The notes under the pieces: model-generated
The model's input: only the letters and a program-made list of their open reading frames with translations
What the model was told of the DNA's origin: nothing
Database searches by the model: none
From: an uncultured Flavobacteriaceae bacterium
GTDB taxonomy: Bacteria; Bacteroidota; Bacteroidia; Flavobacteriales; Flavobacteriaceae
Assembly (NCBI GenBank): GCA_905181835.1
Contig: CAJIZF010000001.1
Span: 248,001-312,000 of the forward strand
Reading direction: 5' to 3'
Length of the DNA: 64,000 nucleotides
Translations under genes and position numbers: made by a program
Part shown: in pieces, positions 34,928 to 41,168 of the stretch
Numbering within the stretch: the stretch's first letter is position 1
Layout: each line of letters begins with the position of its first letter

Positions 34928-36187
34928 TTATGTTAGTTTAAATATAGTATTTTTTATTTTATCTACGAAATCTAGCTTTTCCCAGGTAAAAGTCTCCACT
35001 ATTTTCTTAATTTTTTTACCATCACCAGCATAAAAAGTCAATTCTTTTTCTTCAGGAATTCTTCCCATATGACCATACGAAGCAGTTTCTAAATAAATTG
35101 GGTTTCTAAGTTTTAAACGTGATTCAATTGCAGCGGGTCGCATATCAAATATAGATGCCACTAGTTTAGATATTTCACCATCACTCTTATTAATTTTTGA
35201 AGTATGGTAGGTATTTACATTGATAGAAGTAGGTTCTGCTACACCAATCGCATAACTAACTTGCACTAACACTTCGTCACAAACTCCAGCAGCTACCATG
35301 TTCTTTGCTATGTGCCTCGAGGCATAGGCTGCACTACGGTCTACTTTACTAGGATCTTTTCCGCTAAAAGCACCACCACCATGAGCTCCTTTTCCTCCAT
35401 AGGTATCTACAATTATTTTTCTTCCTGTTAATCCAGTATCTCCATGAGGGCCGCCAATCACAAATTTACCAGTTGGGTTGATATGGTAAGTAATATTGTT
35501 ATTGAACAAAGCTTTTGTGTCAGGATCTAACTGAGCAATCACTCTTGGAATTAAAATCGATTTTAAATCTGATTCGATTTTACTTAACATTTTTGCATCC
35601 TCATCAAATTCGTCATGTTGAGTTGAAATAACAATGGTATCTATTCTTACGGGTTTATTATCATCACTATATTCAATCGTAACTTGACTTTTTGCATCTG
35701 GTCTTAAATAATCGATTTCAGTACATTCTCTTCTAATTTTAGCCAATTCAACTAAAATACGATGACTTAAATCTAGCGCTAAAGGCATATAATTTTCAGT
35801 TTCATTGGTAGCATATCCAAACATCATTCCTTGGTCACCTGCTCCCTGTTCTTCACCATCTTCTTTGTCTACTCCTTGATTAATTTCTGGAGACTGTTCG
35901 TGAATAGAAGAAAATACACCACAGGAATCACCATCAAACTTGTATTCACTTTTGGTGTACCCAATTTTTTTGATAACATCTCTTGCTATTTTCTGAACAT
36001 CTAAATAGGTATTACTCTTTACCTCCCCTGCTAAAACTACTTGTCCTGTTGTTACTAAAGTTTCACAAGCAACTTTTGATTGCGGGTCAAAGGCTAAAAA
36101 ATGATCAACTAATGCATCACTTATCTGATCGGCAACTTTATCTGGATGCCCTTCAGAAACACTTTCGGATGTAAATAAATAAGCCAT
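34928..36187 (-). CDS. metK: S-adenosylmethionine synthetase
   Basis: This 419-residue protein makes S-adenosylmethionine from methionine and ATP. Signatures are [79 protein letters not shown] and [10 protein letters not shown]-like [13 protein letters not shown]. All active-site loops are present. An upstream SAM-II-like leader suggests feedback by its product. Confidence 0.98.
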
Positions 36188-36272
36188 AAATGGATAATTT
36201 TTAATTTAATATTTTAGAAAAAATGGATTGCAGCCTGCTGAGAGAACAGATTTCTTAAGAAACTTGTTTTAC

Positions 36273-36336
36273 GTTTTAGCATTTATAGTTACCTAAAATT
36301 AGTAACAGAGGTTGCAATCAGTCAAATTTTTCCTCT
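36273..36336 (-). ncRNA. SAM-II-like riboswitch upstream of metK, with an inserted hairpin
   Basis: Read on the minus strand: AGAGG (36336-36332) pairs with CCUCU (36311-36307), enclosing a 20-base loop with UGACUGAUUGCAA that resembles the SAM-II L1 (UGAUUUAACCGUAUUGCAA). Then comes an extra hairpin GUUAC-N9-GUAAC (36306-36288), followed by UAUAAAUGCUAAAAC (36287-36273), resembling the conserved SAM-II 3' strand AUAAAUGUAGCUAAA. The extra stem sits where SAM-II has only a short linker. The gene (metK) and position (promoter -7 at 36347-36354) fit. The assignment is by eye from known SAM-II sequences. Confidence 0.65.
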
Positions 36337-36346
36337 TTTGATTTTA

Positions 36347-37549: not shown

Positions 37550-38296
37550 ATGAAAAAAGGAATATTTTTGATGTTTTTTATAGTATTAGTAGCTTGTAAT
37601 AGTGAAAATGCTCCAGATTGTATTAGATCTGAGGGCGCTATTATTCAAACTGAAATAAATGTTTCATCATTTTCCAGAATCCTGGTATACAATAACATTC
37701 AACTATTTATTACTGAAGGTCCAGAACAAAAAGTAATAGTAGAAACTGGTGAAAATATTTTTAATGATATTGAAATAAGTATTAATGGAGATTTATTAAT
37801 AGTAACTAATAATATTAATTGTAATTTTATTCGTGATTATGGATTAACCAAAATTTATATTACCTCTCCAAATGTAAGTGAAATCACAAATAGCTCTGAA
37901 TTAACTGTTACCAGTTTAGGGGTATTGAATTATCCTAATTTAGATTTGATCTCCGATGACTTTATAAATAACGAATATTATACTAACGGTGATTTTGACT
38001 TAGAATTAAACACTGAAAATTTAAAAATTATTACGAATGGTTTTTCTAATTTTTTTTTAAAAGGAGCTGTGTTTAATGCTAATATTGGTCTATATGCAGG
38101 TGACTCAAGAGTAGAGGCTTCTGATTTGATTATTCAAAACCTGAATATTTTTCATCGCAGTACCAACAAAATGATTGTAAATCCTCAACAATCAATAACA
38201 GGAGAAATTAGAAGTTTAGGAGATGTTATTTCAAAAAATATTCCACCAGTGGTGGAAGTGACTGAATACTATACAGGAACTCTTATTTTTGATTAG
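37550..38296 (+). CDS. DUF2807 (head GIN domain) lipoprotein
   Basis: From the ATG at 37550 the product is 248 residues with a lipoprotein signal (MFFIVLVACNSEN). The mature part is a right-handed beta-helix of the DUF2807 type: NVSSFSRILVYNNIQLFITE, QKVIVETGENIFNDIEIS, EITNSSELTVTSLG, NANIGLYAGDSRVEASDLI. The longer reading from 37472 overlaps the previous gene and lacks the signal, so the shorter start is chosen. The family is envelope-located with unknown function. Its 3' end overlaps the convergent gldA by 14 bases. Confidence 0.8.
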   Translation: MKKGIFLMFFIVLVACNSENAPDCIRSEGAIIQTEINVSSFSRILVYNNIQLFITEGPEQKVIVETGENIFNDIEISINGDLLIVTNNINCNFIRDYGLTKIYITSPNVSEITNSSELTVTSLGVLNYPNLDLISDDFINNEYYTNGDFDLELNTENLKIITNGFSNFFLKGAVFNANIGLYAGDSRVEASDLIIQNLNIFHRSTNKMIVNPQQSITGEIRSLGDVISKNIPPVVEVTEYYTGTLIFD

Positions 38297-38987
38297 TAAG
38301 TTCAGTAAATAAAGTTTCTAAATTAGTTGCTTTTAGAGTGTCAGATAACGATTTGTCATGAATTAAAACACCATTGTTTATTATAATTACACGGTCACAA
38401 ATAGCTTCCACTTCTTGCATAATATGAGTAGAAAATAATACGGTAATATTTGCTTCTTTTGCTACTTTTTTCACCAGTTCTCTAATCTCAATTAGCTGGT
38501 TTGGATCTAAACCTGTAGTAGGTTCATCTAAAATTAAAACCTTTGGTTGGTGCAATAAAGCACTAGCTAAGCCTACCCTTTGCCTATAACCCTTTGATAG
38601 TTCTCCTATTTTTTTGTGTGCTTCTTTTTTAAGTCCTGTTTGGATGATAACTTTTTCGATTTGATTTTTATCGATTTTATAAATGTCGGCATTAAAATTC
38701 AGAAATTCTTTTACATATAATTCCGGGTATAAGGGATTGTGTTCAGGTAGGTAACCCACACTTTGTTGTACTTTAATCTTGTCGTCGATGACAGAATAAT
38801 TATTAACCCACGCATTTCCTTCAAAAGAGGATATATAAGTAGTTAATATTTTCATTAAGGTTGATTTTCCAGCACCGTTAGGTCCAAGAAATCCTACTAT
38901 CTCACCTCGTTTAATCGAAAATGAAATTTTACTCAAGGCAGTTTGTTCTCCATACTGCTTCGTGATATTTTCTACTCTAATCGACAT
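38283..38987 (-). CDS. gldA: ABC transporter ATP-binding protein, GldA-like, short
   Basis: This 234-residue ABC ATPase has Walker A GPNGAGKSTLMK, Q-loop YLPEHNPLYPELYVKEFL, signature LSKGYRQRVGLASALLHQPK, Walker B VLILDEPTTGLDPNQ and H-loop LFSTHIMQEVEAI. EHNPLYPELYVKEFL is characteristic of gliding protein GldA, which with GldF and GldG forms a transporter needed for gliding in some flavobacteria. GldA is usually about 300 residues. Here ~65 residues before the final LETLFTELT are absent, while that terminal motif remains. gldF/gldG are not adjacent. Overall assignment is good; full function is uncertain. Confidence 0.82.
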   Translation of the reverse strand: MSIRVENITKQYGEQTALSKISFSIKRGEIVGFLGPNGAGKSTLMKILTTYISSFEGNAWVNNYSVIDDKIKVQQSVGYLPEHNPLYPELYVKEFLNFNADIYKIDKNQIEKVIIQTGLKKEAHKKIGELSKGYRQRVGLASALLHQPKVLILDEPTTGLDPNQLIEIRELVKKVAKEANITVLFSTHIMQEVEAICDRVIIINNGVLIHDKSLSDTLKATNLETLFTELTNQK

Positions 38988-39076
38988 TTTTATCTTTAAA
39001 ACAAAACTACATAAATAAAAAGTAAAAAATTACAGCTAGTTTTTAATATTTATCTATATTTATAAAAAATAAATCA

Positions 39077-39148
39077 ATGATCAGATTAGTTACATTTAAA
39101 AATTTTTATCATTTCTTTTTTAAAGATAGGATAGAGATTGATATGTAA
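39077..39148 (+). CDS. Phe-rich leader peptide of the pheA operon
   Basis: A 23-codon frame starts ATG at 39077 and stops TAA at 39146. Residues 7-15 read FKNFYHFFF, so five of 23 are Phe and one is Tyr, with three consecutive Phe codons at 13-15. It lies just upstream of a terminator hairpin and then pheA, the same plan as the enterobacterial pheL leader. Bases GAGATT at 39134-39139, within the leader, can pair with AGTCTC (39174-39179) of the terminator 5' arm, forming an antiterminator when a ribosome stalls on the Phe codons. Confidence 0.7.
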   Translation: MIRLVTFKNFYHFFFKDRIEIDM

Positions 39149-39170
39149 TTAAACTTTAGGTATAATTTAT

Positions 39171-39202
39171 AAAAGTCTCGAAATAATTCGGGACTTTTTT
39201 TT
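39171..39202 (+). terminator. Attenuator terminator of the pheA operon
   Basis: AAGTCTCGAA (39173-39182) pairs over 10 bp (one wobble) with TTCGGGACTT (39187-39196) around ATAA, followed by T residues to 39202. It lies between the Phe-rich leader and pheA on the coding strand, so it is positioned to stop transcription before the operon. Confidence 0.8.
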
Positions 39203-39220
39203 GTTTAAAAAAATAAAATT

Positions 39221-40093
39221 ATGAGTTTAAAAATTGCAATTCAGGGTATCGAAAGTTCTTTTCACGATATGGCTGTAAAAAAAATGTTTCCGAATGACGA
39301 AATTGAATTGGTAATGTGTAACTCATTTGAAAAAGTCACAGCATCTATTAATAATTTAAATGCAGATTTTGGAGTTTTGGCAATAGAGAACACCATAGCA
39401 GGTTCTATTTTGCCAAATTATAATTTAATAGATACCAGTAATCTTATCATTATTGACGAGGTGTTTTTAAATATTCAAATGTATATTATGGCACTCGAAA
39501 CTGATACCATACACGATATTATTGAAATTCATTCACATCCAGTTGCATTACTTCAATGTAAAAACTATTTACAAAAGTTCCCTCCATATTTTAAAATTAT
39601 AGAAGGTACAGATACAGCATCAGTTGCAAAAAAAATAAAAGAAGAAAATCTTAAAGGAGTAGCTGCTATTGCTGGAAAGCAAGTAGCGAAAAAATTTGGT
39701 TTAAAAATATTAGAAAGTAAAATTCAAAATAATAGTCAAAATCAGACACGTTTTGTTTTAGTTGGAAAAAACAATAAAAATTATTCAAAAGAAGTAAATA
39801 AAGCGACTTTAAAATTTAAATTAGATCATAGGGTAGGGAGTTTGTCAAATGTATTGCAATTGTTTAGTACTTTTGAAATTAATTTAACAAAAATACAGTC
39901 TTTACCAATAATAGGAAAACCTTGGCAGTATGCCTTTTTCGTGGATGTATTTTTTAAAGATTATACCTTGTTTAACGAGGTAACAAAAGTACTTGAAAAA
40001 GCAGTTGAAGAACTCAAAATAATAGGAGTTTACAAACAAAATTTTGACAATGAACCAAGCCAACTTTTAAAGACTCTAATTAATGAAAAATAA
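39221..40093 (+). CDS. pheA: Prephenate dehydratase
   Basis: This 290-residue protein converts prephenate to phenylpyruvate in Phe synthesis. The N-terminal domain has IAIQGIESSFHDMAV, FGVLAIENTIAGSILPNYN and the NQTRFVLVG (TRF) motif of the active site. The C-terminal ACT domain (LDHRVGSLSNVLQLFSTFEI, NLTKIQSLPIIGKPWQYAFF) allows Phe feedback inhibition. It is a stand-alone dehydratase without chorismate mutase, which is supplied by the next gene. The two genes overlap by 11 bases. Phe-responsive attenuation upstream fits its job. Confidence 0.95.
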   Translation: MSLKIAIQGIESSFHDMAVKKMFPNDEIELVMCNSFEKVTASINNLNADFGVLAIENTIAGSILPNYNLIDTSNLIIIDEVFLNIQMYIMALETDTIHDIIEIHSHPVALLQCKNYLQKFPPYFKIIEGTDTASVAKKIKEENLKGVAAIAGKQVAKKFGLKILESKIQNNSQNQTRFVLVGKNNKNYSKEVNKATLKFKLDHRVGSLSNVLQLFSTFEINLTKIQSLPIIGKPWQYAFFVDVFFKDYTLFNEVTKVLEKAVEELKIIGVYKQNFDNEPSQLLKTLINEK

Positions 40094-41168
40094 CAAAAGC
40101 CTAAGATCTTGGTTAAATAAAATGGAATTAAAACATCCATTGGTAATCGCAGGACCGTGTAGTGCAGAGTCAGAAAGCCAAGTATTAAATGTAGCACATC
40201 AATTAAAAAATACAGATGCTACTATTTTTCGTGCCGGTATTTGGAAGCCCAGAACAAGACCTGGAAATTTTGAGGGAGTAGGTAAAATAGGTTTGAAATG
40301 GTTGAAAAAAGTAAAAGAGGAGACAGGACTTTTAACTGCTACAGAGGTTGCTAATCCGACTCATGCGGAGTTAGCAATAAAAAATGAGGTCGATATTATC
40401 TGGATAGGAGCTCGTTCTACAGTTTCTCCTTTTATTGTCCAAGAAATTGCAGAAGCTCTAAAAGGCACTAAAAAAGTTGTTTTAGTAAAAAATCCAGTTA
40501 ATCCAGATTTATCGCTGTGGCTTGGGGCTGTTGAACGCTTGTATACCTCCAATATAAAAAATATAGGAGTCATACACAGAGGATTTTCTAACTATGAAAA
40601 AACTAGGTATAGAAATAATCCAGAGTGGCAAATCCCAATCGATTTACAAAATCAATTTCCAGATTTACCCTTACTGATAGACCCTTCTCATATTGCAGGA
40701 AGAAGAGATATTATTTTTGATTTGTGTCAAAGAGCTTTAGATTTAAATTTTGATGGCCTTATGATAGAGACGCACCATCAACCTGATGATGCATGGAGCG
40801 ACGCACAGCAACAGGTTACCCCAGAAAAATTAAAGCAAATCACCACTAATTTAAAGATCAGATATGAAGAAGGAAATGCTATTGAATATCAAAATAAATT
40901 AGCAAATCTCAGAACACAAATTGATGTGGTCGATCATAAATTAACTGAAACACTAGGTAAAAGGATGAAAATAGCAGATAAAATTGGTATTTTGAAGAAA
41001 GATAACAATGTTGCTATTTTACAAAATAAACGCTGGAATGAAATCTTAGAAAAAATGATACTAGAAGGTAAAGAAAATGGCTTGAGCAAAGAATTTGTTT
41101 TAAAAATATATAAAGCTATTCATCAAGAATCAATTAATCACCAAAACAAACTACATCAAGATCAATAA
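40083..41168 (+). CDS. Bifunctional DAHP synthase/chorismate mutase (type II)
   Basis: This 361-residue protein joins the first shikimate-pathway step and chorismate mutation. Residues about 15-255 are a class I KDSA/DAHP synthase-type barrel: HPLVIAGPCSAESESQVLNV, FRAGIWKPRTRPGNFEGVG, GARSTVSPFIVQEIAEALKG, VHRGFSNYEKTRYRNNPEW-like segment and LPLLIDPSHIAGRRD. Residues about 275-350 are an AroQ chorismate mutase: LANLRTQIDVVDHKLTETLG, KRMKIADKIGILKKDNN. In other flavobacteria an aminotransferase and tyrA usually lie between pheA and this gene; here they are missing. Confidence 0.92.
   Translation: MKNNKSLRSWLNKMELKHPLVIAGPCSAESESQVLNVAHQLKNTDATIFRAGIWKPRTRPGNFEGVGKIGLKWLKKVKEETGLLTATEVANPTHAELAIKNEVDIIWIGARSTVSPFIVQEIAEALKGTKKVVLVKNPVNPDLSLWLGAVERLYTSNIKNIGVIHRGFSNYEKTRYRNNPEWQIPIDLQNQFPDLPLLIDPSHIAGRRDIIFDLCQRALDLNFDGLMIETHHQPDDAWSDAQQQVTPEKLKQITTNLKIRYEEGNAIEYQNKLANLRTQIDVVDHKLTETLGKRMKIADKIGILKKDNNVAILQNKRWNEILEKMILEGKENGLSKEFVLKIYKAIHQESINHQNKLHQDQ

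Follow-up and report, generated by a model that had tools for sequence, protein, structure and literature searches.

A phenylalanine- and tyrosine-codon leader ahead of pheA in Bacteroidia and its probable role in transcription attenuation

The pheA-aroG/CM unit of an uncultured Flavobacteriaceae bacterium is, as judged from its sequence and from comparison with relatives, very probably under classical ribosome-mediated transcription attenuation. The unit lies in the 64,000-nucleotide stretch of DNA that was analysed here (the window), where a leader frame rich in Phe codons, an intrinsic terminator and an antiterminator reaching back into the leader stand ahead of pheA. Our verdict is that this element would be a widespread, Rfam-less case of the classical mechanism.

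The features of the locus are collected in Table 1. An earlier note on this DNA had described a 23-codon Phe-rich frame, followed by a hairpin with a T run and then by pheA, and had placed GAGATT and AGTCTC where Table 1 gives them; direct reading confirmed both the arrangement and these coordinates. The leader begins with the ATG at 39077-39079 and ends with the TAA at 39146-39148. Phe is encoded by codons 7, 10, 13, 14 and 15 and Tyr by codon 11, i.e. five Phe codons and one Tyr codon within codons 7-15, 5' of the first gene. From the putative -7 box, transcription would start approximately 8-10 bases 5' of the leader ATG. The TAnnTTTG consensus is that of PMC9723704, and in a best-match search with no shuffle control the best box matched 5 or 6 of its 6 letters upstream of 135 of 143 distinct leaders, at a median of 18 nt from the ATG. 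Downstream, pheA opens with the ATG at 39221 and carries an additional ACT match slightly below the Pfam cut-off; aroG-CM overlaps the 3' end of pheA and is probably co-transcribed with it. Because the ABC ATPase neighbour lies on the other strand, the hairpin at 39171-39198 terminates no upstream gene on its own strand. Elsewhere in the window, a SAM-II riboswitch (long loop, RF01726, 50.9 bits) was observed on the minus strand at 36266-36341, before a minus-strand gene (34928-36187) that looks, by eye, like metK.

Table 1. Positions, strands and supporting evidence of the features at the pheA locus of the window
Feature	Position	Strand	Evidence or remark
Putative -7 box TATATTTA	39055..39062	+	5 of 6 fixed letters of TAnnTTTG; letters read from the sequence
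Leader reading frame MIRLVTFKNFYHFFFKDRIEIDM	39077..39148	+	23 codons and TAA; sequence read directly
Control region, codons 7-15 (F K N F Y H F F F)	39095..39121	+	Sequence; F/Y enrichment across the family
Strand 2 (GAGATT), antiterminator 5' strand	39134..39139	+	Inside the end of the leader frame; covariation, own-versus-foreign pairing, spacing
Strand 3, 5' arm of the terminator	39171..39182	+	AGTCTC at 39174-39179 common to terminator and antiterminator
Strand 4, 3' arm (39187-39198) and T run ending at 39202	39187..39202	+	Folding; covariation
pheA, prephenate dehydratase, first gene of the regulated unit	39221..40093	+	Pfam PF00800 (PDT), E 1.2e-50
aroG-CM, DAHP synthase-chorismate mutase fusion	40083..41168	+	Pfam PF00793 and PF01817
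Upstream neighbour, ABC ATPase gene	38283-38987	opposite to pheA	Divergent

Both alternative pairings of the terminator arm were examined in the window and across the family. On folding, the intrinsic terminator between leader and pheA (39171-39202) is AAAAGTCTCGAA/ATAA/TTCGGGACTTTT, a stem of 12 bp with a 4-nt loop (-13.0 kcal/mol) and a T run to 39202; the hairpin and T run reported earlier hold, whereas the stem is longer than the 10 bp given then. The helices sought on an alignment were the terminator, the antiterminator and a 1:2 pairing, and the alignment scored, A2, was made from sequence and comprises 25 leaders hand-picked for alignability from 81 leaders thinned for similarity. In A2, 96.4% of the terminator cells are paired and 5 of 10 pairs have changed on both sides; on four of five covariation measures 0 of 500 shuffles score as high, and on the fifth 8 of 500. 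The window antiterminator GAGATT/AGTCTC has 6 bp with one G-U, and about 61% of shuffles match it (p about 0.61). Since this match is at chance level, the antiterminator convinces solely through the relatives, and taken singly 31 of 143 distinct leaders likewise miss p 0.05 for this complementarity. In A2, 84.5% of the antiterminator cells are paired, 17 cells are changed on both sides, and the column pair 71-122 occurs as A-U in 14 leaders, G-C in 10 and G-U in 1. None of 500 shuffles reaches the antiterminator's value for cells paired, cells changed on both sides or covariation score; on pairs with a change on both sides (368/500) and further pair types (165/500) it does not exceed the shuffles. 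Sliding the partner by 1-3 columns lowers pairing to 21-44%, a comparison that favours the scored structures, which were set by hand on the alignment.

Each leader was also paired with its own and with foreign terminator arms. This analysis used all 81 thinned leaders, and the leader segment was defined by its position and not picked by pairing; the segment after the last control codon scored 18.7 with its own arm compared with 13.0 with foreign arms (0/20000 permutations). The first 22 nt of the leader showed no own-arm preference (8.36 versus 8.32; 8246/20000), and a control segment just 5' of the hairpin showed a slight one (9.01 versus 8.46; 48/20000), far below the strand 2 signal. Core words co-vary between leaders, as in CGAGAC/GTCTCG, CGGGACT/AGTCCCG, GCCGGG/CCCGGC, GAAGCGGGA/TCCCGCTTC, AGGATTGT/ACAATCCT and GAGCGGTC/GACCGCTC. 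As judged from these sequences, the hairpin and the competing antiterminator both covary across the family, and the pairing that the earlier note had proposed from the window is supported by the family covariation and the own-arm preference. The same note had likened the element to pheL-pheA, and the frame, the terminator and the antiterminator bear this out; a pheL-type 1:2 pause hairpin was found not to be conserved across the 143 leaders (median p 0.43; 16 leaders at p 0.05 or below, where approximately 7 are expected). In the predicted fold of the whole window leader, strand 2 is paired with upstream codons.

Relatives were scored with a combined rule, which comprised at least 6 aromatic residues in 12 codons, a hairpin downstream and a leader-to-arm pairing score of at least 11, with 3 of 4 aromatic residues as the control cluster and one stem mismatch or bulge allowed. 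The rule was revised once after inspection, and the shuffles were run with the revised rule. The first version (at least 7 aromatic residues in 12 codons, a perfect stem and a 5-bp match past the final aromatic residue of the whole peptide) passed 97 of 190 loci, with L001 and L002 both failing, and was dropped because its search segment fell behind the C-terminal Tyr of '...LYV' leaders and mismatched stems were missed. The revised rule is passed by 150 of 190 pheA upstream regions compared with 6 of 9450 dinucleotide shuffles; among the shuffles, 364 contain an aromatic-dense frame, 21 of these also a hairpin, and 6 of those also reach the complementarity threshold. After inspection, the searched region was shifted for L026 and L093, in which insertions separate the leader from pheA, and L166 was allowed GTG starts. 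Three loci in which a leader is visible by eye (L027, L093 and L138) fail the rule and were counted as leader-bearing in the operon comparison (153 loci). Seven of the 150 passing leaders are exact duplicates, which leaves 143 distinct leaders. In L026, the leader-terminator is intact at 846-984, and between 984 and 1501, ahead of pheA, it is followed by an array of repeats that resemble one another and that each contain a GC-rich hairpin; L007 has a single unit similar to these repeats between leader and pheA.

The 190 loci were taken from the phylum in four sets, with some genomes present twice. First, set A, drawn from an initial search for relatives (matches in 38 of 59 genomes), comprised the best 30 loci, ten of them from the genus of the window; 28 of the 30 pass, including all ten of the genus, the window's own among them. 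A Phe-rich frame and a hairpin do co-occur in relatives, which was the check that the earlier note had suggested. In this genus, 11 of 19 genomes have a pheA match, one being a partial gene outside the ten loci examined. Second, set B consisted of 40 loci hand-picked for spread among the matches listed in an order-wide search (241 of 393 genomes matched). Here the leader was found in 19/19 loci of the window's family f1 and 2/2 of f9, and no passing leader was found in f5 (0/12), f16 (0/6) or f12 (0/1). Third, 78 of 80 loci pass in set C, which is biased to similar PheA proteins because the best-scoring 80 of 590 hits in named genomes were taken; its genera include Flavobacterium, Polaribacter, Tenacibaculum, Maribacter, Flagellimonas, Capnocytophaga, Phocaeicola and Bacteroides, together with Prevotellaceae. 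The leader is present, for example, in F. tagetis (L105), F. psychrotolerans (L118) and F. cutihirudinis (L119), and that of Phocaeicola vulgatus (L095) is MKALYNTYFFFFYYFYFSNKVKREFVCVR. Fourth, set D held 40 loci of a phylum-wide search (138 of 158 genomes matched), i.e. all 17 matches from other families of the class and hand-picked loci from f1 (7) and from other classes (16), of which 15/17, 7/7 and 1/16 pass, respectively. The arrangement first noticed in a flavobacterium is present there and extends across the class, beyond the flavobacteria. The sole out-of-class leader, L191 (family f46), reads MKQNYKQARYYFYFYFYFFSSPGGYCLF, with a hairpin and T run, and may reflect either an older origin or transfer. 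L159 contains two tandem aromatic-rich frames (383-436 and 525-608) before one pheA, with a hairpin after each, possibly two attenuators in series. A plasmid search by blastn gave no match.

The position of strand 2 relative to the codons at which a ribosome would stall is nearly fixed. From footprint sizes, a ribosome that has the last control codon in its A site should have its front edge near the start of strand 2. Counted from the first base of the last aromatic control codon, the start of strand 2 lies at 10-16 nt in 133 of 143 leaders, compared with 17% of shuffled segments; the median is 13 nt (10th-90th percentile, 11-15), and in the window, where this codon is the last Phe codon, the distance is 15 nt. 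Such a conserved spacing is expected if a stalled ribosome must leave strand 2 free, and the stall geometry suggested by the earlier note is conserved across the family. The distance from strand 2 to the stop codon is more variable than that to the last control codon (SD 9.4 versus 3.2). Many Flavobacterium-type leaders stop directly after the control codons (MSNNRFYFSNSFYFFSER, MSTNRFYFSNSFYFFFRK), and elsewhere the stop follows 20 or more nt later. That the distance between stall site and strand 2 varies less than peptide length is expected if the RNA covered by the ribosome is what matters. With an assumed footprint of -18 to +14 around the stop codon, a terminating ribosome would overlap strand 2 in 137 of 143 leaders and cover it wholly in 92; strand 2 lies outside in L079, L083, L113, L116, L121 and L157. 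In ten loci (L034, L035, L038, L044, L048, L094, L112, L117, L123 and L126), the stop comes right after the control codons and strand 2 lies just outside the frame. These stop-early, Flavobacterium-type leaders stand beside similar leaders with strand 2 inside the frame and constitute a natural footprint test.

The control codons of the family are not those of Phe alone. In long ATG frames of the same loci, F accounts for 4.3% of residues and Y for 3.3%, whereas across the 143 distinct leaders the shares are 23.5% and 13.2%; Trp reaches 1.9% (1.1% in the long frames) and His 0.6%. Tyr codons occur in all 143 leaders and Trp codons in 64. The Phe control codons of the earlier note are therefore retained, and its restriction to Phe is not, as the family combines Phe with Tyr codons, and in some loci with Trp codons. 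A leader reading Phe and Tyr would fit the operon, which mostly holds pheA, an aminotransferase, tyrA and aroG/CM (assigned by Pfam in Flavobacterium tagetis and Phocaeicola vulgatus, elsewhere by similarity); tyrA was found in the searched stretch of 117 of 143 leader-bearing loci and was absent in 25, one stretch being too short. Within 3 kb after pheA, an aromatic-pathway gene was detected by similarity in 152 of 153 leader-bearing loci, and conversely 152 of 163 loci with such a gene have the leader compared with 1 of 27 without, namely L093. Since the leader tracks the aromatic operon, the element appears tied to pheA as the head of a pathway operon. The 11 loci that are leaderless despite an aromatic-pathway gene are six of f16, L029 and L070 (f12, same genome), L057 (f5), L160 and L164; in the last two, pheA follows, by eye, almost directly after another reading frame.

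In the genus of the window, the loci read contain pheA-aroG/CM only, and no prephenate dehydrogenase match was found in its 19 genomes (completeness 69-99%), whereas 14 of 14 control genomes match. The genome of L024 (G025), another tyrA-less case, likewise gave no prephenate dehydrogenase match. Tyr may be made from Phe in such tyrA-less genomes. Biopterin_H, the aromatic amino-acid hydroxylase domain, was matched in 10 genomes among the 19 of the genus, the window's own not being one of them, and in the two further tyrA-less genera examined (G030 and G025). It was also matched in 3 of 7 genomes with prephenate dehydrogenase (G064, G059 and G427); this hydroxylase, which might replace tyrA, is not specific to tyrA-less genomes. 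Tyr makes up 19% of Phe and Tyr codons in 12 tyrA-less leaders of related species, a group chosen after inspection (L001, L003-L011, L072 and L074), compared with 37% in the other 131, and a low Tyr share is clear in this group only. In statistics that ignore common descent, tyrA-less operons overall have a slightly lower Tyr share (p 0.026) and more, not fewer, Trp-bearing leaders (p 0.026). Tyr codons are kept in the tyrA-less operons of the flavobacteria L024, L071 and L073 and of L153, L161, L163, L165 and L167 from another family. The window's own genome (G000, 90% complete) gave no match for HisG, homoserine dehydrogenase, IlvD or phosphoribosylanthranilate isomerase; unless gaps in the assembly account for these absences, this organism is apparently auxotrophic for several amino acids yet retains Phe synthesis and the attenuator.

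Herein, we propose that attenuation of the pheA-aroG/CM unit would proceed as follows. RNA polymerase would start just 5' of the leader frame, and a ribosome would translate the leader. When charged tRNA-Phe, and in most relatives also tRNA-Tyr, is plentiful, the ribosome would reach the stop codon and cover strand 2; strand 3 would then pair with strand 4, and transcription would stop ahead of pheA. When Phe is short, the ribosome would stall at codons 13-15 with strand 2 just past its front edge, and the free strand 2 would pair with strand 3, so that no terminator forms and pheA-aroG/CM is transcribed. It might instead be the nascent peptide that arrests the ribosome and not slow decoding of Phe and Tyr, given that the leader peptides are short and strongly aromatic. 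We regard this as very unlikely, as the leaders differ widely in which residues they contain and in what order (FYHFFF, NFWYFFF, YYNWFYFFF, NGFYFYFFF, YFFFFYYFYF) but maintain their F/Y content, and the RNA that follows the aromatic cluster is used for pairing, which together fit codon counting and not a specific arrest sequence. Slightly less credible still is a reading in which the Phe-rich frame is incidental and the hairpin either terminates transcription constitutively or ends an independent small RNA. The hairpin by itself is indeed an ordinary intrinsic terminator, and the 364 of 9450 shuffles noted above show that a frame of such aromatic density can arise by chance; however, frame, hairpin and pairing stand together in the 150 passing loci, the hairpin arm covaries with strand 2, which lies within or next to the frame, and the distance of strand 2 from the last control codon is nearly fixed. 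Moreover, a terminator without release would be expected to silence a biosynthetic operon. Least likely of all is a ligand-binding RNA (riboswitch or T-box) governing the hairpin, which a structured 5' region ahead of a biosynthetic gene could suggest, as no Rfam family reached threshold at the locus or in nine relatives and the leader-side region is little structured (mean z -0.69 on the 72 of 143 leaders folded).

Bacteroidia populate guts, soils and seas, and for them the pheA attenuator described here would be a concrete and testable regulator of the Phe/Tyr pathway, common to Bacteroides, Phocaeicola, Prevotellaceae, Capnocytophaga, Flavobacterium and many marine Flavobacteriaceae. Its approximately 140 natural variants would measure the reach of a stalled ribosome, with strand 2 beginning about 13 nt beyond the start of the last control codon, and its leader codons may change as the gene content of the operon does. 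Bacteroidia ribosomes do not recognise Shine-Dalgarno sequences (PMC9976891). Beyond attenuation itself, it is possible, if somewhat doubtful, that the element is an ancestral attenuator of the whole class, in which a single short frame responds jointly to the supply of Phe, Tyr and in some cases Trp, translation proceeds independently of Shine-Dalgarno sites, no conserved pause hairpin keeps polymerase and ribosome in step, and the leader is retuned as the operon changes; the retuning draws on the lower Tyr share of the tyrA-less flavobacterial group.

Part of this picture is in print. For F. psychrophilum, PMC9723704 (2021) reports a structured 5' element upstream of pheA, Rfam-less and occurring in other Flavobacteriaceae genera, and strong clues for leader-peptide attenuation ahead of amino-acid operons. 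That element agrees with the window element in position and in having no Rfam hits, and the idea is therefore already published in outline. In the section concerned, however, the pheA element is not expressly called a leader-peptide case, no peptide, antiterminator or Tyr/Trp codons are given, and its occurrence is described at family level only. In the literature searched, of partial coverage and with subscription journals mostly outside, no other description of the leader was found and little on amino-acid attenuation in Bacteroidia, and the class-wide spread, two-helix covariation, fixed spacing and Phe/Tyr/Trp mix were not found. The main text of PMC2965389 does not mention Bacteroidetes, Bacteroides or pheA. 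In B. thetaiotaomicron, sORFs reminiscent of leader peptides are mentioned in PMC7366714, in passages that do not name pheA.

Amino-acid attenuation is textbook knowledge in enterobacteria, and the Bacteroid-trp motif is linked to trp genes. This motif (RF01692), listed by Weinberg and co-workers (PMC2864571), is a Bacteroidetes cis-regulatory RNA, as the pheA leader would be; no RF01692 match was found at the locus or in nine relatives. A 281-base scan (38980-39260) gave six Rfam matches up to E 10, and Phe_leader was not among them or at the gathering threshold; the best sub-threshold matches, rimP leader and STnc230, align over the terminator hairpin and were dismissed. The pheL-pheA attenuator combines a short leader rich in Phe codons, a terminator before pheA and a mutually exclusive antiterminator reaching into the leader. 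As in Escherichia coli and Salmonella, the window has a Phe-rich leader, a terminator and an antiterminator that reaches into the leader. Attenuation of pheA is named in PMC1183508, which also describes, for the enterobacterial models, the 1:2 pause hairpin that synchronises polymerase and ribosome. Unlike pheL-pheA, the Bacteroidia leaders mix in Tyr codons and in some loci Trp codons, the operon of most relatives also has an aminotransferase, tyrA and DAHP synthase-chorismate mutase, and a conserved 1:2 pause hairpin was not found; a further difference is the failure of Bacteroidia ribosomes to recognise Shine-Dalgarno sequences. The enterobacterial Phe_leader family is, we take it, RF01859 and included in the Rfam library scanned. 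The pheA leader would work like this family but is not a member of it by sequence and structure, and would merit an Rfam family of its own.
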